64,000 nt of DNA, from assembly GCF_006547145.1 (NCBI RefSeq), contig NZ_CP041244.1:186001-250000 (forward strand), given 5' to 3'. The translations under genes and the position numbers were made by a program. The DNA is from Actinomadura sp. WMMA1423 (lineage in GTDB: Bacteria; Actinomycetota; Actinomycetes; Streptosporangiales; Streptosporangiaceae). The notes below the pieces were generated by a model. It had not been told where the DNA came from. It did no database searches and saw only the letters and a list, made by a program, of their open reading frames with translations. Shown here piece after piece: positions 33,988-40,843 of the stretch (its first letter is position 1; every line of letters begins with the position of its first letter).

Positions 33988-34950
33988 TCAGGGGCGGGAG
34001 CGCAGGCGGCGGAGCATGCGGGCGTCGGTGAAGCCGACGGCGCGGGCGGCGGCGTCGGTGGTGGCCCCCTGCCCGATGAGGTGCTCGGCGCGTTCGAGCC
34101 GCAGCTCCTGCTGGTAGCGCAGCGGGGTGAGGCCGGTGGCGGCGGTGAAGCGGCGGGTGAGGGTGCGTTCGCTGACGCCGGCCTCGGCGGCCAGGGCGTG
34201 CAGGGGCAGGGCGCGGGTGTAGCGGGCGTCGATGAGGTCCTGGGCGCGGTGGACGGCGTCGCTGACGTGGGCGCGGTGCCGCAGCAGGGCGCTGGCCTGG
34301 GGTTCGTCGCCGTTGCGGCGCGCGTACACGACCATGGCGCGGGCGGTGCGCGCGGCGGCGGCGGGGCCGTGCCGGGAGGCGACCAGGTGCAGGGCGAGGT
34401 CGATGCCGGAGGCGATGCCGGCGGAGGTGATGACGCGGCCGTCAGTGACGTACAGCACGTCGCGGACGACGGCGGCGCGTGGGTGGCGGCGGGCCAGGGC
34501 GTCCTGGAGCTCGTGGTGGGTGGTGCAGCGGCGCCCGTCCAGGAGGCCGGCGTGGCCGAGGGCGAACGCCCCGGCGCAGACGCTGGCGACGGTTCCGCCG
34601 GCGGCGTGGTGGCCGGCCAGGCGGCGGGCGGCGTGGGCGGAGACGGGCGGGGCGTGGGGTTCGCCGGTGCCCCAGCGCCATCCGGGGACCAGGAGGATGT
34701 CGTCCGCGGTGAGGGACGGCCAGGCGGTGGGGGCCTGGAGGGGGACGCCCTGCGCCGTCGGCACGGTGGCGGGTGCGCCGGCGGCGGCCTCGGGCGCCGC
34801 CTCCTCGTCCCGCCGGTCGCCGGGGAGGTCGGCGACGTAGGCGAGCCGGTAGGGCAGGCCGGCGTCGGCGGCGGTGCCGAACACCTGGGCGGGCCCGGCC
34901 AGGTCGAGCAGGTGGAGGCCGGGCACGAGCAGGAAGGCGACGCGGGTCAC
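33988..34950 (-). CDS. GlxA-family AraC transcriptional regulator (DJ-1/PfpI + HTH)
   Basis: A 320-residue protein. Residues ~1-180 are a DJ-1/PfpI-like domain (VAFLLVPGLHLLDLAGPAQV; SVCAGAFALGHAGLL, with the nucleophile-elbow Cys). Residues ~220-320 are an AraC HTH (LHALAAEAGVSERTLTRRFT; PLRYQQELRLERAEHLI). GlxA regulators sense small metabolites. The isochorismatase-like gene ends 8 bp upstream of its start and is probably co-transcribed. Confidence 0.92.
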   Translation of the reverse strand: MTRVAFLLVPGLHLLDLAGPAQVFGTAADAGLPYRLAYVADLPGDRRDEEAAPEAAAGAPATVPTAQGVPLQAPTAWPSLTADDILLVPGWRWGTGEPHAPPVSAHAARRLAGHHAAGGTVASVCAGAFALGHAGLLDGRRCTTHHELQDALARRHPRAAVVRDVLYVTDGRVITSAGIASGIDLALHLVASRHGPAAAARTARAMVVYARRNGDEPQASALLRHRAHVSDAVHRAQDLIDARYTRALPLHALAAEAGVSERTLTRRFTAATGLTPLRYQQELRLERAEHLIGQGATTDAAARAVGFTDARMLRRLRSRP

Positions 34951-34957
34951 GATCCGG

Positions 34958-35551
34958 TCAGCCTACCGGGGTGGGGGCGAGGTCGTCGACGGAGGCGATC
35001 TCGGCGAACCGCCGCGCCAGGGCGTACTCGGTGCGGGCGATGATCTGGTCGACGGGCAGGGTGGCGGGGTCGGCGAGGATCTCGGCGAGGGGGCGGCCGG
35101 GCGGGGCGTCGCGGTGCTCGATGGGGAAGGTGGCGGTGGCGTCGGTGACGAAGGCGACCTTGTAGCCGAGGTCGGCGGCCAGGCGGGCGGTGGTCTCGCA
35201 GCACTGCTCGGTCTGGATGCCGCAGACGACGACCTCGCCGACGCCGCGCTCGGTGAGCCACTGCTGCAGGCCGGTGGTGGTGAAGGCGTTGCGGGAGGTC
35301 TTGGTCATGACGGGCTCGCCGGCGGCGGGGGCCAGGCCGTCCATGAGGCGGACGTGGCCGAGCGCGGGGTCGAAGGCGTTCCCGGTGCCGGGCTCGGCGT
35401 GCAGGACCCACACGACCAGGTCGCCCGCGGCGCGGGCGGCGGCGGCCAGGCGCTGCGCGCGGGCGGCGATGTCGGGGGCCGAGACCGCCTCCCAGTTGGG
35501 GCGGCGGCGGAAGGACTCTTGGACGTCGATCACGAGGAGCGCTCGGTTCAT
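34958..35551 (-). CDS. Isochorismatase-like cysteine hydrolase
   Basis: A 197-residue hydrolase with the catalytic triad Asp9 (LLVIDVQ), Lys84 (VMTKTSRNAF) and Cys117 (GIQTEQCCE). The family includes nicotinamidases and N-carbamoylases; the substrate is not evident. It lies directly upstream of the GlxA-type regulator, a recurring pairing in which the regulator controls the hydrolase. Confidence 0.92.
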   Translation of the reverse strand: MNRALLVIDVQESFRRRPNWEAVSAPDIAARAQRLAAAARAAGDLVVWVLHAEPGTGNAFDPALGHVRLMDGLAPAAGEPVMTKTSRNAFTTTGLQQWLTERGVGEVVVCGIQTEQCCETTARLAADLGYKVAFVTDATATFPIEHRDAPPGRPLAEILADPATLPVDQIIARTEYALARRFAEIASVDDLAPTPVG

Positions 35552-35732
35552 GGGTTCGATCCTGGCCGGGCGCGGCGCCCTCGGGGAGGCACCATCGCGG
35601 CGGGATGCGGAACGATCCGGTCACCAGATCGCGTCGCGCCCGGGTAAAGGTTCCCCGGCGGGGGAGGGAGGGGGTGTTCTGGGCGGGAATCCCCCGAGGT
35701 GAGGGGGTCTGCACGAGTGAGGGGGACTCGGC

Positions 35733-37007
35733 ATGGGCGGAGGCGGCAGGGGGCACGCGCCGGGCGTCAGCATGGGGGTGGAGGAGGAGTTCCTGCTGGT
35801 GGACGCGGCGTCGGGGCAGTGCCTGGCGAACGCCGAGGACGTCCTGGAGCGCGCCGGGCCGCACCGGTGGCGCGAGTCGGGCGGCTCGTTCCACACCGAG
35901 CTGCTGGGCTCGCAGGTGGAGTCGGTGACCGGGGTGTGCCACGACCTGGCGGGCCTGCGCGCCCAACTGCGTTACGGGCGGGCCCGGCTGGCCGGGGCGG
36001 CGCGCGCGGAGGGCGCGCTGCTGGTGTCGTCGGGGACGCCGGTGCTGGGCGGCGACCCGCCGGCCGCCGCGCGGGGCGAGCGGTTCGCCGCGATCGTGTC
36101 CGCCTACGGCGACGTGGTCGAGGACTACCAGGCGTGCGGCTGCCACGTGCACGTCGGCGTCCCGGACCGGGAGGCCGCGGTCGGGGTGGTGAACCATCTG
36201 CGGCCGTGGCTGCCGGTGCTGGTGGCGCTCGCGGCGAACTCGCCCTTCGACCGCGGCCGCCCCACCCGCTACGCGGCGCGCCGGATGGTGGAGATGGCGC
36301 GGTTCCCCGGGGCGGGCGTGCCGCCGTGGTCGGCGTCGGCGTCCGAGTGGGACGCGCGGGTCGCGGCGCTGGTGGAGTCGGGCGCGCTGGTGGACCGGGC
36401 GATGACGTTCTGGCTGGCGCGGCCGTCGCCGCGCTGGCCGACGGTGGAGGTGCGGGCGGGGGACGCGGCCGCGACCGCGGACGAGGCGGTGCTGCAGGCG
36501 GCGCTGGTGCGGGGCCTGGTCGGCGCCGCGCTGGCGGAGCTGGCGCGGGGCCGGGAGGCGCCGCGGCTGGACGGGCAGGTGTGCGCGGCGGCGCTGTGGA
36601 ACGCGGCCCGGCACGGCCTGGGCGGCGCGATGGTGGACCCGGTGACGCGGCGGGCCGTCCCGGCGTGGCGGCTGGTGGACGCCATGGTCGCCCGCGCGGC
36701 CCCGGCCCTGGAGGAGGCCGGCGACCTGGACACGGTGACCACGCTGGTGGAGGGCGTGCGCCGGGCGGGGACGGGCACCGACCGGCAGCGCCGCGCGGCG
36801 CGGCGCGGCGGCCCGCGCGCGGTGGTGGGGATGCTGGCCCGCCAGACCGAGTCGGGCGGGCTGGCCGCGGGTGCGGGGCCGGGCACGGCGGGCGGGCCGC
36901 TGGGCGGCCCCGCCGAGGGGCCGGGTGAGCCGCCGGGTGCCGCACCAGGGGAGGAACCGGGCGTATGGGACGCGAGTGAGCGGGTACCGGAGCCGGACGC
37001 CCCCTGA
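35733..37007 (+). CDS. Carboxylate-amine ligase (YbdK/GCS2 family)
   Basis: A 424-residue ATP-grasp-related glutamate-cysteine-ligase 2 family protein. MGVEEEFLLVD, then GCHVHVGVPDREAAV and RWPTVEVRAGDAAAT are the core motifs. It joins an acid to an amine with ATP; true substrates of this group are often unknown. The C-terminal ~55 residues are Gly/Pro-rich. The 181-bp upstream region holds repeated GTGAGGGGG tracts and probably the promoter. It opens a four-gene operon with an iron enzyme, a methyltransferase and a CDGSH protein. Confidence 0.88.
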   Translation: MGGGGRGHAPGVSMGVEEEFLLVDAASGQCLANAEDVLERAGPHRWRESGGSFHTELLGSQVESVTGVCHDLAGLRAQLRYGRARLAGAARAEGALLVSSGTPVLGGDPPAAARGERFAAIVSAYGDVVEDYQACGCHVHVGVPDREAAVGVVNHLRPWLPVLVALAANSPFDRGRPTRYAARRMVEMARFPGAGVPPWSASASEWDARVAALVESGALVDRAMTFWLARPSPRWPTVEVRAGDAAATADEAVLQAALVRGLVGAALAELARGREAPRLDGQVCAAALWNAARHGLGGAMVDPVTRRAVPAWRLVDAMVARAAPALEEAGDLDTVTTLVEGVRRAGTGTDRQRRAARRGGPRAVVGMLARQTESGGLAAGAGPGTAGGPLGGPAEGPGEPPGAAPGEEPGVWDASERVPEPDAP

Positions 37008-37021
37008 CGACGGAGGAGAAA

Positions 37022-38194
37022 ATGACCGTTCAACAGGAACGACCGCCCTCCCGCGGCCCCGCCGCGGGCCTCGGCCCTCCGGGCCCGGCGGGCGGCTTCA
37101 CGCCCGGCCCCGCACCCGCATCCGTGCGGGCGCGCGCGGACCGGCCCCCGGTACTGCCCGAGCCCCGCGGGCCGCTGTCACGAGCCGTGACGGCCATCTT
37201 GGCCTCGGGCCCGCCCCCGGGCCCCCACGACGACCCCGCGGACGCGCCGCGGACCGCCGGCCTGGTCGCCGAGGCGCGGTCCGTCGACCCCTACGGCGAC
37301 GACCTGCAACTGGCCCTGCACACCTGCTACGAGCTGCACTACCAGGGATTCGCGGGCGTGGACCCCGACTGGGAGTGGAACCCGGACCTGCTGCGGCTGC
37401 GCGGCGCGATGGAGGAGGTGTTCCTGGCGGCGCTGCGCCGCGACGTGTGGCGGGCGGGCGGCGACGCGGCGGCCCGGGACGTCCAGGGCGCGCTGGAGGA
37501 ACTGCTGGTCGAGCCGGTCGACGCGCACGGCGTCTCCCACCATCTACGCGACGAGGGCACCGGGTGGCAGATGCGCGAGTACGCGGCGCTGCGGTCGGTG
37601 TACCACCTGAAGGAGGCCGACCCCCACGCCTGGGTCATCCCCCGGCTGCGGGGACGCGCCAAGGCGGCGCTAGTGGCGGTGGAGAACGACGAGTTCGGCG
37701 GCGGCCGGCCGGAGATGACGCACCAGGGCCTGTACGCCGACCTCCTGGACGACCTGGGCCTGGACCCCTCCTACGGCGCGTACGTGGACGCGGCGCCGGC
37801 GGTGATGCTGGCGACGGTGAACATGATGTCGCTGTTCGGGCTGCGGCGCTCGCTGCGGGCCGCGCTGGTGGGCCACTTCGCCGCGGCGGAGATCACCACG
37901 GCGCCGGCCGCACGGCGGATGGCGCGGGCCCTCGAGCGGCTGGGCGCCGGCCCCCGGGCCCGGCTGTTCTACACCGAGCACATCGAGGCCGACGCCGTCC
38001 ACGAGCAGGTGCTGCGCCACGAGGTGATCGGCGGGCTGCTGGAGGCCGAGCCCGGCCTCGCCGGGGACGTGGTGCTGGGCGTGCGCGCGACGGGCCTGCT
38101 GGAGGACCGGCTGGGCGGCCGTCTGCTGGACGGCTGGCGGGCGGGCCGCTCGGCGCTGCGGCGCCCGCTCGCGGACGCGCCGGCGGCCGGGTGA
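37022..38194 (+). CDS. Iron-containing redox enzyme (haem-oxygenase-like)
   Basis: A 390-residue protein of the haem-oxygenase-like diiron oxidase type. After a ~55-residue Pro/Gly-rich leader, CYELHYQGFAG supplies candidate Glu/His ligands. A central ENDEFGGGRPEMTHQGLYAD and a late TEHIEADAVHEQVLRHE add the acidic and histidine residues expected for the metal site. Relatives oxidise, desaturate or cleave amino-acid or fatty-acid substrates. ATG 37022 follows GGAGGA and is 14 bp after the ligase. The adjacent CDGSH protein could supply electrons; that is inference. Confidence 0.87.
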   Translation: MTVQQERPPSRGPAAGLGPPGPAGGFTPGPAPASVRARADRPPVLPEPRGPLSRAVTAILASGPPPGPHDDPADAPRTAGLVAEARSVDPYGDDLQLALHTCYELHYQGFAGVDPDWEWNPDLLRLRGAMEEVFLAALRRDVWRAGGDAAARDVQGALEELLVEPVDAHGVSHHLRDEGTGWQMREYAALRSVYHLKEADPHAWVIPRLRGRAKAALVAVENDEFGGGRPEMTHQGLYADLLDDLGLDPSYGAYVDAAPAVMLATVNMMSLFGLRRSLRAALVGHFAAAEITTAPAARRMARALERLGAGPRARLFYTEHIEADAVHEQVLRHEVIGGLLEAEPGLAGDVVLGVRATGLLEDRLGGRLLDGWRAGRSALRRPLADAPAAG

Positions 38195-38211
38195 AGAGAG
38201 AAGAGGGGGCG

Positions 38212-38913
38212 ATGATGCTTTTCAGGCTGCCGGGGGTGTACCGGCCGCAGGCCGACACCTCGCTGCTGACCCGGGCGCTGCTGGCGTCGCTGGCGCGGGC
38301 GGGGGCCCCCGCGGGGGCGCGGGTCCTGGAGCTCGGCACCGGCACGGGCGCGGTGGCGCTGGCCGCGGCGCGGGCCGGGTGCGAGGTCGTCGCGGTGGAC
38401 GCCTCGGCGCAGGCGGTGATGGCGGCGCGGGTGAACGCGCGGATGCGGGGCCTGCCGCTGCGGGTGCTGCGCGGGGACCTGTTCGCGCCGGTCGCGGGGG
38501 AGGAGTTCGACGTGATCGTGGCCAACCCCCCTTACGTGGTGGGGGATGTCGACCCGGCGTCGGTGCGGGGCCGGGCGCGAGCGTGGGAGGCGGGGCCGGA
38601 CGGCCGCGTGCTACTGGACCGGATCTGCGCGCAGGCGCCGGGCCATCTGAGCCCTTCGGGGACGCTGCTGGTGGTGCATTCGGCGCTGAACGGGGTGGCG
38701 GCCACGCTGGTGGGGCTGCGCGAGGCGGGGATGCGGGCGTCGGTGGTGGCGCGGCACCGCGAGCCGTTCGGGCCGGTGATGCGGCGCCGCGCGGACGCGC
38801 TGTGGTCCCGGGGCCTGCTGCCGGCCGGGCAGGCGCACGAGGACCTGGTGGTGGTCCGCGCGGACCGGGTCGGGGAGGAGGCGCGCGATGACCGCGACCG
38901 GGCGGCGGCCTGA
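38212..38913 (+). CDS. HemK-like SAM-dependent methyltransferase
   Basis: A 233-residue methyltransferase. SAM motif I is VLELGTGTGAVALAAARAG, followed by VVAVDASAQAV. The DVIVANPPYV motif (NPPY) is typical of HemK/PrmC-type N- or small-molecule methyltransferases. It starts at ATG 38212 after a GAGGGGG site, 17 bp after the iron enzyme. Its last 26 bp overlap the CDGSH gene. The substrate is likely the pathway intermediate, not a release factor, given the operon. Confidence 0.88.
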   Translation: MMLFRLPGVYRPQADTSLLTRALLASLARAGAPAGARVLELGTGTGAVALAAARAGCEVVAVDASAQAVMAARVNARMRGLPLRVLRGDLFAPVAGEEFDVIVANPPYVVGDVDPASVRGRARAWEAGPDGRVLLDRICAQAPGHLSPSGTLLVVHSALNGVAATLVGLREAGMRASVVARHREPFGPVMRRRADALWSRGLLPAGQAHEDLVVVRADRVGEEARDDRDRAAA

Positions 38914-39166
38914 GGCGCCCGCCGCGGCGTCCGCGGACCCGGCCGGCCAGGCGGGTCCGCCCGCCGGCGGCGCGGGTGGCCGGGAGCGGCGGCGGGTGCG
39001 GATGGTGCCGGGCGGGCCGGTGCTGGTGGAGGGCCCGGTGGAGGTCGTGATGGAGGACGGGACCACGGCGGTGTCGGACCGGTGGCTGGTCGCGCTGTGC
39101 GCGTGCCGCCGCAGCCGCTCCTTCCCGTTCTGCGACACCAGCCACCGTCGGCGCCGCCGCGACTGA
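38888..39166 (+). CDS. CDGSH iron-sulfur domain protein
   Basis: A 92-residue protein with a C-terminal CDGSH-type [2Fe-2S] site: Cys71, Cys73, Cys82 and His86 in CACRRSRSFPFCDTSH. The three-Cys, one-His spacing is exact, with Thr replacing the usual Gly. The N-terminal ~30 residues are low-complexity. CDGSH proteins transfer electrons or clusters. It overlaps the methyltransferase by 26 bp and ends the operon. Confidence 0.88.
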   Translation: MTATGRRPEAPAAASADPAGQAGPPAGGAGGRERRRVRMVPGGPVLVEGPVEVVMEDGTTAVSDRWLVALCACRRSRSFPFCDTSHRRRRRD

Positions 39167-39207
39167 CCGGGGCCGGAGCGCGGCGGTGACCGGGCGTCGC
39201 CCCGCGA

Positions 39208-39248
39208 AACGCGCCGCCCCGCGGCGGTGTGCCGTGGGGCGGCGCGTT
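39208..39248. terminator. Hairpin downstream of CDGSH operon
   Basis: Perfect 13-nt arms, AACGCGCCGCCCC and its complement, enclose a 15-nt loop. It lies between the convergent stops at 39166 and 39320 and can serve both strands. Confidence 0.6.
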
Positions 39249-39319
39249 CGGTAGCGCCTTCGTGGTGGCGCGTTCGTGGTGGCGCCGCGCCGAGTGGTGG
39301 CGGCGTGTGGCGGCGGGTG

Positions 39320-39571
39320 TCAGCCGCCGAGGCTGTCCAGCGCGGTGTCCAGGCGCTGGGCGAGGGCCTCGATCTGCTCCTCGTTGGCGCCGGTGTCGAG
39401 TTCGGCGATGACGGCGTCCCTCGTGGTGATCACCATGGCGTCCTCGGGGCCGTCGCCGCGCCCGGGGTCGCCGGGGACGACGGCGGCGCGGCCCCCGACG
39501 ACGACGAGCGCGGCGCCGCGGTCGGTGGAGGCCAGCAGGGTGTGCAGGTGCTCGGATGTGATCGTCGGCAT
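39320..39571 (-). CDS. Small hypothetical protein
   Basis: An 83-residue acidic protein, probably real because GGAGG is well spaced before its ATG and its codon use is normal. It has a beta-rich start (SEHLHTLLASTDRGAALVVV), a middle motif DAMVITTRDAVIAELD and a helical end (IEALAQRLDTALDSL). No family is recognised. It is downstream of the epimerase on the same strand, but the 70-bp gap suggests its own control. Confidence 0.6.
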   Translation of the reverse strand: MPTITSEHLHTLLASTDRGAALVVVGGRAAVVPGDPGRGDGPEDAMVITTRDAVIAELDTGANEEQIEALAQRLDTALDSLGG

Positions 39572-39646
39572 CGGGTGACCTCCGGATCGGTCTGGTCGCG
39601 GGAGCTGTCGGACTGGGGGGCGGACGTGGGGTGTCGGCGTGGGGGG

Positions 39647-40723
39647 TCAGGGGCGTTGGCCGGCGCCGGTGCCGATCTCGCGGCCGCGCAGCCGTCCGCC
39701 GGTGCCCGGGGACAGCGGCGGGGTGTCGCGGCCGGCACCGGTGCGCAGCCCCTCCAGGAACTCGCCGATCGCCTCGCGGGAGGTGTGCCGGGGCGTCCAG
39801 CCGAGTTCCTCGCGGGCGCGGGCGGTGTCCATGAGCGGGATCTGCAGGGCCAGGTCGAACAGGCCGGGCGAGGCGGGCACCAGGTGCAGGCCCCAGGCCG
39901 CGGCGAGCGCGGCCCGCACGCCCCGCGCGGGCATCCGCACGATCCGGGCGCCGAGCAGGTCGGCGAGTTCGGGGGCGTCCAGGACGGGTTCGGCGGCGAG
40001 GTTGAACGCGCCGCGGGCCTCGCCGGTGGCGGCCAGGCGGAAGGCCTGCCCGGCGTCGGCGGAGTGCAGGACCTGCAGCCGCAGGCCGGGCAGGTCCGGC
40101 ACGACCGGGATGAGGCCGGGGCGGGCGAGCCGGCCGGGCAGCAGCGGCCCGGCGAACAGGCGGCGCTGCTCGCTGGCGCTCTGCCGTTCGAAGACGAACC
40201 CGGGCCGCAGCCGCACGACCCGGCATCCGGGGTCGGCGGCCTCGAAGGCGTCCAGGAGCCGCTCGACGTAGGCCTTCTCGCGGCTGTAGGCGGCCCCGGG
40301 CCACCCGTGGGTGGGCCAGGACTCGTCGACCGCGCGGTCCTTGGGGCCGGGGGAGTAGGCGCCGACGGACGAGGAGTACACCAGCGCGGGCACGCCCGCG
40401 CGGGCGGCGGCGTCGAACACCCGGGCGCTGCCGACGGCGTTGGAGTCCCAGGTGACCGTGGGCCGGTGGGTGGGCTGGAACAGCCACGCCAGGTGGACGA
40501 CCGCGTCGGCGCCGCGCATCAGCGGGACCAGGTCGGTGTCGGTGACGTCGGCCTCGGCCCATCGCAGCTTGCCGGTCCCGCCGGGGTCGGCCTCGCGGGC
40601 GGCCTCGGGGCCGGGGTCGCGGCGGGCGAGCCCGACGATCTCGGTGACGGCCGGGTCCGCTGCGAGCGCGCGGACGGTGCTGGTTCCGATGTTGCCGGTG
40701 GCGCCGGTGACGACGACGCGCAT
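39647..40723 (-). CDS. NAD-dependent epimerase/dehydratase
   Basis: A 358-residue extended SDR with VTGATGNIGTSTVRAL, the Tyr/Lys pair in YSREKAYVERLL and RLRPGFVFE. The C-terminal ~40 residues are low-complexity. It resembles actinobacterial SDRs of uncertain function, possibly sterol/flavonoid-reductase-like. ATG 40723 (MRVVVTG) is chosen; the start at 40750 adds nine residues. No partner gene indicates its substrate. Confidence 0.88.
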   Translation of the reverse strand: MRVVVTGATGNIGTSTVRALAADPAVTEIVGLARRDPGPEAAREADPGGTGKLRWAEADVTDTDLVPLMRGADAVVHLAWLFQPTHRPTVTWDSNAVGSARVFDAAARAGVPALVYSSSVGAYSPGPKDRAVDESWPTHGWPGAAYSREKAYVERLLDAFEAADPGCRVVRLRPGFVFERQSASEQRRLFAGPLLPGRLARPGLIPVVPDLPGLRLQVLHSADAGQAFRLAATGEARGAFNLAAEPVLDAPELADLLGARIVRMPARGVRAALAAAWGLHLVPASPGLFDLALQIPLMDTARAREELGWTPRHTSREAIGEFLEGLRTGAGRDTPPLSPGTGGRLRGREIGTGAGQRP

Positions 40724-40843
40724 GGCGGTCTCCCCCTCGTCGGCGGTCACCCGCGGGGTCGTCCCCGCAGGTGGACGGCCCCATTCCCGTCCCGCGCCGA
40801 TGTATGCCCCGCCGCCGCCCCGCCCGGGAGCGGCGTCGCGGTG

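Follow-up and report, generated by a model that had tools for sequence, protein, structure and literature searches.

A CDGSH protein gene coupled to a heme-oxygenase-like diiron oxygenase in a candidate N-oxygenase cassette of actinobacteria

In a 64,000-nucleotide stretch of the Actinomadura sp. WMMA1423 genome (NZ_CP041244.1, positions 186,001 to 250,000; hereafter the window) we analysed a four-gene operon encoding a carboxylate-amine ligase, a heme-oxygenase-like diiron oxygenase (HDO), an S-adenosylmethionine (SAM) methyltransferase and a CDGSH [2Fe-2S] protein. We propose, as a reading with about an even chance of being right, that the operon is an N-oxygenase cassette of actinobacteria in which the CDGSH protein recharges the diiron site of the HDO, and the metabolite on which the HDO acts is also N-methylated by the methyltransferase and, in some lineages, glutamylated by the ligase. 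A broader claim is offered tentatively, as a real possibility short of an expectation: that the single-motif CDGSH protein acts as an electron donor dedicated to a diiron N-oxygenase, and that type 4 CDGSH proteins in a large part of the Actinomycetes chiefly drive one conserved pathway of N-oxidation leading to an N-methylated, sometimes glutamylated metabolite, perhaps from arginine. The four genes are as follows.

35733-37007, + strand: YbdK/GCS2-type carboxylate-amine ligase by Pfam and NCBIfam, 424 aa; optional fourth member of the cassette
37022-38194, + strand: HDO (PF14518), 390 aa; ligand positions E198, E224, H234, E290, H320, D324 and H327
38212-38913, + strand: HemK2/MTQ2-type SAM methyltransferase, 233 aa; NPPY motif at residues 105-108
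38888-39166, + strand: single-motif CDGSH [2Fe-2S] protein, 92 aa; motif reads CDTSH; cluster ligands C71, C73, C82 and H86

The layout as a single unit, with gaps of 14 bp (ligase to HDO) and 17 bp (HDO to methyltransferase) and a 26-bp overlap of the methyltransferase and CDGSH genes, is as the initial annotation had described it, and its family calls for the four genes are upheld by Pfam and NCBIfam. Purine runs resembling Shine-Dalgarno sites precede the HDO, methyltransferase and CDGSH genes. The ligase matches GCS2 (PF04107, E 1e-38, 133.8 bits against a cut-off of 21), NF010041 (346.4 bits, cut-off 332) and TIGR02050 (227 bits, cut-off 176.4), which places it in the YbdK/GCS2 family, and its solved relatives are 1r8g and 1tt4. 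PF14518 (E 1e-54) is the sole Pfam family in the HDO. The methyltransferase, with an isoelectric point (pI) of 10.4, scores 114.5 bits against the TIGR00537 (HemK2/MTQ2) cut-off of 87 and carries NPPY, the motif of N-methylating enzymes; N105, P106 and P107 are present in 100 of 100 aligned methyltransferases and Y108 in 99. In the CDGSH protein PF09360 occurs once (E 9.7e-17), and the four ligands of the 3 Cys-1 His single-motif site are invariant in all 134 aligned CDGSH sequences.

Gene order was compared in the best 80 of at least 560 stretches confirmed by tblastn with the window HDO, a set biased to close relatives. The methyltransferase lies near the HDO in 79 of these nearest loci (with a score of at least 200 in 77) and the CDGSH gene in 77; the three loci without CDGSH (L015, L026 and L055) sit on contigs that end 654, 454 and 75 bases past the HDO match, and all 77 uncut loci have both genes. 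All four genes share one strand, as in the window, in 12 of the 80 loci, and ligase and HDO occur with a convergent pair in 23. A reversed methyltransferase-CDGSH pair, convergent with the HDO, occurs in 25-26 loci of this set, which indicates that its link to the HDO survives rearrangement and needs no fixed operon.

Co-occurrence was examined in two overlapping samples. The phylum sample comprised 296 genomes, of which 58 had an HDO match, 50 of them strong, with the 8 weak ones counted as negative; all CDGSH candidates were scored in the 50 HDO-positive genomes and up to 22 per genome otherwise. CDGSH was present in 38 of the 50 HDO-positive genomes versus 58 of the 246 others (Fisher p 4e-12), and among the 26 listed genomes of the window's class it was found in 19/19 HDO-positive and 0/7 HDO-negative ones. 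At 50 phylum loci (48 genomes), CDGSH lay within 5 kb of the HDO in 32 and the methyltransferase (score at least 200) was found in 15. The class sample comprised 197 genomes of the class Actinomycetes, with up to 33 CDGSH candidates scored per genome and the HDO subfamily defined as PF14518 hits of at least 156 bits (weaker hits, of 128 bits or less, were excluded). It yielded 97 HDO-subfamily hits in 95 genomes; both genes were present in 82 genomes, HDO only in 13, CDGSH only in 33 and neither in 69 (Fisher p 4e-15). Six second CDGSH rows (G309, G316, G335, G346, G359 and G368) were not entered, which leaves the genome counts unaffected. CDGSH lay within 5 kb of 81 of the 97 hits (37 downstream on the same strand, 29 downstream on the opposite strand, 10 upstream on the same and 5 upstream on the opposite strand), against about 0.2 neighbours per 97 hits expected by chance when the target spans 10 kb and the genome several megabases, and 77 of the 82 genomes with both genes have a single CDGSH match only. 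Genera g201, g202, g4, g12 and g9 are mixed, with listed species that carry both genes beside listed species that lack both, a pattern that favours gain or loss of HDO and CDGSH together. The HDO-CDGSH association is thus far beyond chance. The conserved synteny that the initial annotation had proposed to look for across actinobacteria is strong, and both gene order and co-occurrence give strong backing to its suggestion that the iron enzyme is served by the CDGSH protein.

The seven ligand positions of the HDO are invariant in 104 aligned HDO sequences (one from the window, 17 from the 80 nearest loci and 86 from 90 other loci, with L041, L107, L143, L157 and L169 omitted). E198 aligns with the fourth-carboxylate Glu of SznF (in LSEAS), which we take to be E189, and with that of RohS (LTEAQ); HrmI has F at this position. 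The remaining six, E224, H234, E290, H320, D324 and H327, align with the SznF metal ligands E215, H225, E281, H311, D315 and H318 (PMC11705231). The window protein therefore carries, by alignment, the three His and three carboxylates of HDOs plus the SznF-type fourth carboxylate; the SznF HDO has seven metal-binding residues (PMC10849742), and an HDO class with this 3H/4C set is described in a review (PMC13108848). A C-terminal cupin domain like that of SznF is absent, the window protein ending soon after the HDO domain. Among solved structures, profile matches are led by SznF (2.5e-20), HrmI (1.4e-18) and RohS (5.8e-17), followed by BesC (5.5e-4); FlcD was not among the sequence-profile matches at E 0.001. 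The AlphaFold2 model (predicted local distance difference test, pLDDT, 91.9) has the heme-oxygenase-like helical fold, with VIA-align Z of 32.5-33.1 to HrmI, 24.6-28.3 to SznF and 27.2-27.7 to RohS over nearly the whole model (25-33 overall), and of 13-20 to CADD, UndA, BesC and PolF over about residues 145-390 only. HrmI, SznF and RohS, all N-oxygenases, rank first by sequence profile, Foldseek and VIA-align. Judged by sequence and model, the window HDO groups with the N-oxygenases; N-oxidation therefore seems likelier than the initial annotation's proposal that the iron enzyme can oxidise or cleave an amide.

The CDGSH protein resembles type 4 CISD proteins such as RsCISD in its single CDGSH motif, its 3 Cys-1 His ligands and a basic residue after the His. 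Type 4 domains have Lys or Arg right after the His ligand (PMC3174974), which in the window protein is H86-R87. Members of this type are common in Actinobacteria, and most prokaryotes carry one CISD type (PMC3174974). A partner enzyme is not named in the part of PMC3174974 consulted, whereas the window gene, with its CDTSH motif, is tied to one HDO subfamily. Proteins of the CDGSH (mitoNEET) type are found widely, and their bacterial members are without an assigned partner in the literature consulted; with one bacterial group tied to a single oxygenase subfamily by gene order and presence/absence, its role becomes directly testable with two small proteins.

Building on the observed arrangement, families, ligand positions, predicted fold and genomic coupling, we infer a scheme of four steps, in which the order and the identity of the substrate are likewise conjectural. 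The HDO would hold a diiron(II) site with seven protein ligands (three His and four carboxylates, as in SznF), activate O2 and hydroxylate, or oxidise further, a nitrogen of a small amine, guanidine or amide. Turnover would leave a diferric cluster, and the basic CDGSH protein, as dedicated redox partner, would dock on the acidic HDO and re-reduce it one electron at a time. The NPPY methyltransferase would methylate this molecule at a nitrogen, in the way that SznE readies the SznF substrate, and the YbdK-type ligase, where present, as in the window, would add a carboxyl-amine bond, probably gamma-glutamyl. The pairing of methyltransferase SznE with SznF (PMC11705231) and of HDO MboA with its dedicated redox partner MboB (PMC13185094) are precedents. 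If the scheme is true, an N-oxidised metabolite would be made by a large share of actinomycetes, in line with the HDO subfamily in 95 of the 197 class genomes.

On a Kitasatospora plasmid (NZ_CP108290.1, L221:2896-6954) a ligase, a dimethylargininase, an HDO, a CDGSH and a HemK2-type methyltransferase gene stand together, the dimethylargininase between ligase and HDO. This gives a hint of a methylarginine-related substrate. As a general member the dimethylargininase was rejected, since none of the 170 scanned loci gave a match at E 1e-6, and it is a single-case lead.

Comparison with known systems brings out what is shared and what is distinct. The streptozotocin pair SznE/SznF likewise combines a methyltransferase with an HDO N-oxygenase, and the seven-ligand pattern and spacing of the HDO are identical (PMC11705231, PMC13108848). 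SznF has a cupin domain that the window HDO lacks, at about 20% identity; SznE is described as an arginine-guanidino methyltransferase, whereas the window enzyme is HemK2-like; and the window cassette adds the CDGSH protein and the YbdK ligase. HrmI (Z about 33) and RohS (Z 27-28) are nearest among solved structures and also match strongly by profile, at 17-19% identity, but HrmI lacks the seventh ligand that the window HDO has, and a CDGSH partner for either is not described in the portions of the literature consulted. MboA/MboB of mangotoxin biosynthesis resembles the window in joining an HDO to a dedicated iron-sulfur redox partner and peptide-forming ligases, with an acidic region on the HDO and a basic patch on the partner (PMC13185094). 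In contrast, MboB is a flavin plus Fe2S2 reductase rather than a CDGSH protein, MboA has a 3H/3C site and makes an alkyne whereas the window HDO has seven ligand positions, and the freestanding amino acid ligases of mangotoxin biosynthesis, identified in an ATP-grasp screen (PMC13185094), differ from the GCS2-type ligase of the window. MboAB is possibly the first characterised dedicated HDO-redox partner pair (PMC13185094, April 2026), and the CDGSH protein would, if the proposal is true, be a second, different and widespread kind of such partner. What is new here is the HDO subfamily and its cassette, the HDO superfamily being known. Full-text searches returned no paper linking CDGSH to HDOs, most subscription journals and bioRxiv preprints lying outside their coverage, and as far as literature searches go the earlier statement that the grouping is not tied to a defined product holds.

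Several observations weigh against the proposed function. Structurally, the carbon-excising FlcD (Z 24.9-25.5) is tied with the lower SznF rows, and its Foldseek E of 4.5e-6 compares with 2.6e-6 for RohS, so a common fold is no proof of N-oxidation; HrmI, an N-oxygenase without the fourth carboxylate, shows that the seventh ligand is not diagnostic. An HDO that oxidises carbon instead of nitrogen (one that desaturates, cleaves C-C bonds or excises carbon, like FlcD, BesC or MboA) would suit the structural closeness of FlcD, C-centred reactions are common among known HDOs (PMC13108848), and the neighbouring ligase is reminiscent of MboA, whose substrate is a peptide (PMC13185094). We nevertheless hold carbon oxidation to be quite improbable, given that N-oxygenases come first by both profile and structure, that FlcD falls outside the profile list and that the SznF-type seventh ligand is invariant in the 104 aligned HDOs.

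Gene content adds further exceptions. No CDGSH gene was detected in 12 of the 50 HDO-positive phylum genomes or in 13 of the 95 class genomes, and CDGSH is present in 33 of the 102 class genomes without the HDO subfamily. Most genomes of family f85 keep an NPPY-type methyltransferase beside the HDO without CDGSH: ten loci (L156-L165) have an HDO adjoined by a different NPPY-type methyltransferase with very weak family matches, and at L172 CDGSH is present instead. No other redox partner conserved beside the HDO was seen in CDGSH-less f85 loci among the neighbours identified, which are only some of them. In 19 deeper-branching actinobacterial loci (listed below), 15 of them with CDGSH, a glycosyltransferase-like gene with weak or absent Pfam matches lies near the HDO, its midpoint about 0.9-1.4 kb downstream on the same strand in 18; such a gene was found at 11 of the 50 phylum loci. 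It replaces the methyltransferase after the HDO, so the substrate may differ between clades. An HDO-glycosyltransferase fusion, suspected from overlapping open frames, was rejected, the frames being separate in 19/19 loci inspected.

L119, L122, L124, L125, L128-L130, L136, L138, L140, L145: glycosyltransferase-like loci, first group
L174-L178, L181, L182, L193: glycosyltransferase-like loci, second group

The mostly opposite net charges of the pair speak for the proposed docking, the HDO being negative in 56/56 HDO/CDGSH pairs and the CDGSH protein positive in 51/56, in a comparison without an unlinked-CDGSH control. mitoNEET proteins transfer clusters, and the genomic coupling fits an iron or cluster donor, or a sensor, as well as electron transfer. 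The CDGSH protein could supply iron or iron-sulfur clusters, or sense redox state, so as to assemble or switch a labile HDO diiron centre, and diiron clusters are labile in many HDOs (PMC13108848). An assembly factor need not be tied to one HDO, and the second oxidation of MboA needs the iron-sulfur reductase MboB, a precedent for an electron-donating partner (PMC13185094); on balance we consider such a donor or sensor role unlikely. Elsewhere in the same genome (contig 1, about 9.222-9.224 Mb; L216:1004-2842), a ferritin-like domain (PF12902) is followed by two CDGSH motifs in one frame. Such a natural union of CDGSH motifs and a different type of iron protein would agree with CDGSH having a redox role.

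A further point against the proposed function concerns DtpC of Acinetobacter baumannii, a distant HDO co-transcribed with katE that protects dried cells and needs its predicted metal ligands to do so (PMC13232832). Together with loci that lie among stress-type regulators, it makes a stress role a serious rival: the CDGSH-fed HDO would consume O2 or peroxide, or make a small protectant, under drying or oxidative stress, with methyltransferase and ligase as accessories. Of 170 loci scanned, 12 have sigma-B-type factors no more than about 5 kb away and 9 have SRPBCC proteins at up to 6 kb; CsbD, STAS and SpoIIE genes are near the cassette on the Kitasatospora plasmid (L221), and sigma-B-type factors are beside it on a Streptomyces plasmid (L219). 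Being plasmid-borne at these two loci, the cassette can move, and it may belong to stress islands. Stress-type genes, however, are found at a minority of loci, in a count that does not include the background rate of neighbours; the second spacing of the DtpC residues E143, H153 and H232 is 79 versus 86 or 93 here; and the recurring methyltransferase and ligase point to a metabolite. We accordingly give the stress module a rather small chance.

A methyltransferase acting on protein (a release factor, the HDO or the CDGSH protein), with the ligase as a passenger, would leave HDO and CDGSH as the only functional pair. HemK2/MTQ2 is named as a protein methyltransferase family, the solved relatives of the window enzyme are HemK and N6AMT1, and the ligase is missing from most phylum-wide loci. 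We judge this distinctly improbable in view of the methyltransferase lying beside nearly all close HDO relatives, the presence in family f85 of another NPPY-type methyltransferase that repeatedly adjoins the HDO, and the linkage of ligases in different gene orders and ligase lineages (L121 and L141 versus the window type).

In the N-oxygenase cassette proposed here the ligase is an optional member. The initial annotation had cast it as the step that makes the amide, and as an obligatory first step it is not supported, since just 37 nearest loci out of 80 and 5 phylum loci out of 50 have it within 2.5 kb of the HDO; of the 43 nearest loci that do not, 3 are cut on the upstream side. In a tree of 50 ligases (30 HDO-linked and 20 hand-picked unlinked ones, covering 22 of the 38 ligases of the nearest loci), 22 HDO-linked GCS2 proteins including the window's form one clade with no unlinked member (SH-like approximate likelihood ratio test, SH-aLRT, 99); the window ligase shares the GCS2 domain with YbdK-family enzymes, and 22 of the 30 linked ligases have a clade of their own. 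Deep linked ligases do not group with unlinked paralogues of the same genomes, in a part of the tree where the backbone is poorly resolved; linked ligase L109 groups with four unlinked ones (support 100), and three ligases 3.6-5.6 kb from the HDO (L080, L130 and L186) fall elsewhere. Distant members of the phylum combine ligase, methyltransferase and CDGSH with the HDO in other gene orders (L121, L139 and L141), and L137 has ligase and methyltransferase in another order without CDGSH. The ligase was probably coupled to the HDO more than once.

In a tree of 114 HDOs, made by a quick method with 26 of the 80 nearest loci, one long branch (L153) and L041, L143, L157 and L169 omitted, the window falls inside a 50-row clade (SH-aLRT 100), in 45 rows of which the methyltransferase is present. 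The minimum number of state changes over this tree is 7 for CDGSH, 14 for the methyltransferase and 13 for the ligase. A further 40 loci were hand-chosen, 16 of them for having no CDGSH within 5 kb, and are not a random set; L169 repeats L115.

A lead on expression comes from Streptomyces. A secreted subtilisin-inhibitor-type gene, recognised by eye, adjoins many Streptomyces loci with HDO, methyltransferase and CDGSH (27 of 80 loci, 26 of these 2.0-2.6 kb downstream). A bldA mutant of S. coelicolor shows lower levels of SCO0759 (a hypothetical protein with 1 predicted transmembrane domain), SCO0760 (a probable methyltransferase with a predicted pI of 10.9) and SCO0762 (the precursor of a protease inhibitor) (PMC2000904). 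By gene order and pI alone, SCO0759-SCO0761 are probably this cassette. SCO0760 is almost unchanged between two growth stages (PMC6135851), and SCO0761 is named as a target of quantitative reverse-transcription PCR (PMC5826349).

The surroundings of the operon in the window are as follows.

33988-34950, - strand: AraC/DJ-1-family gene, upstream flank; matches near the HDO in 9/80 nearest loci
34958-35551, - strand: isochorismatase-family gene, upstream flank; matches in 7/80
35552-35732, no strand: intergenic, flanked by the operon and the divergent isochorismatase-family gene; expected promoter site, by position only
39208-39248, no strand: inverted repeat of 18 nt with a 5-nt loop, 94% complementary, between convergent genes; starts 41 nt after the last stop
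39320-39571, - strand: 83-aa gene of no recognised family, downstream flank; matches in 11/80
39647-40750, - strand: epimerase gene, downstream flank; matches in 11/80

With the flanking genes on the opposite strand and the inverted repeat closing the downstream end, the transcription unit is the ligase, HDO, methyltransferase and CDGSH genes. The four flanking genes were rejected as cassette members, the loci with matches being nearly all Actinomadura and a few of the matches weak or far; epimerase homologues are also present at L035, L139, L156 and L192. A scan of 34900-39700 for sigma-70 promoters found no sigma-70-like site. The inverted repeat is probably the transcription terminator of the operon; a terminator scan requiring a T run did not list it.

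The initial annotation had also ascribed long disordered tails to oxidase and ligase. For HDO residues 1-40 the AlphaFold2 model gives pLDDT values that average 56-60 by block, consistent with disorder, and the ligase tail past about residue 373 is low-complexity, with similar tails only in some close Actinomadura relatives. As a functional feature the tails were rejected, since they are conserved only among close relatives and so lie outside the conserved system.

Finally, two more PF14518 genes, 3 kb apart and scoring 72-79 bits, lie on contig 1 of the same genome at 5162739-5166270 (L002, L003 and L217). Their low scores indicate that they probably belong to other HDO subfamilies.

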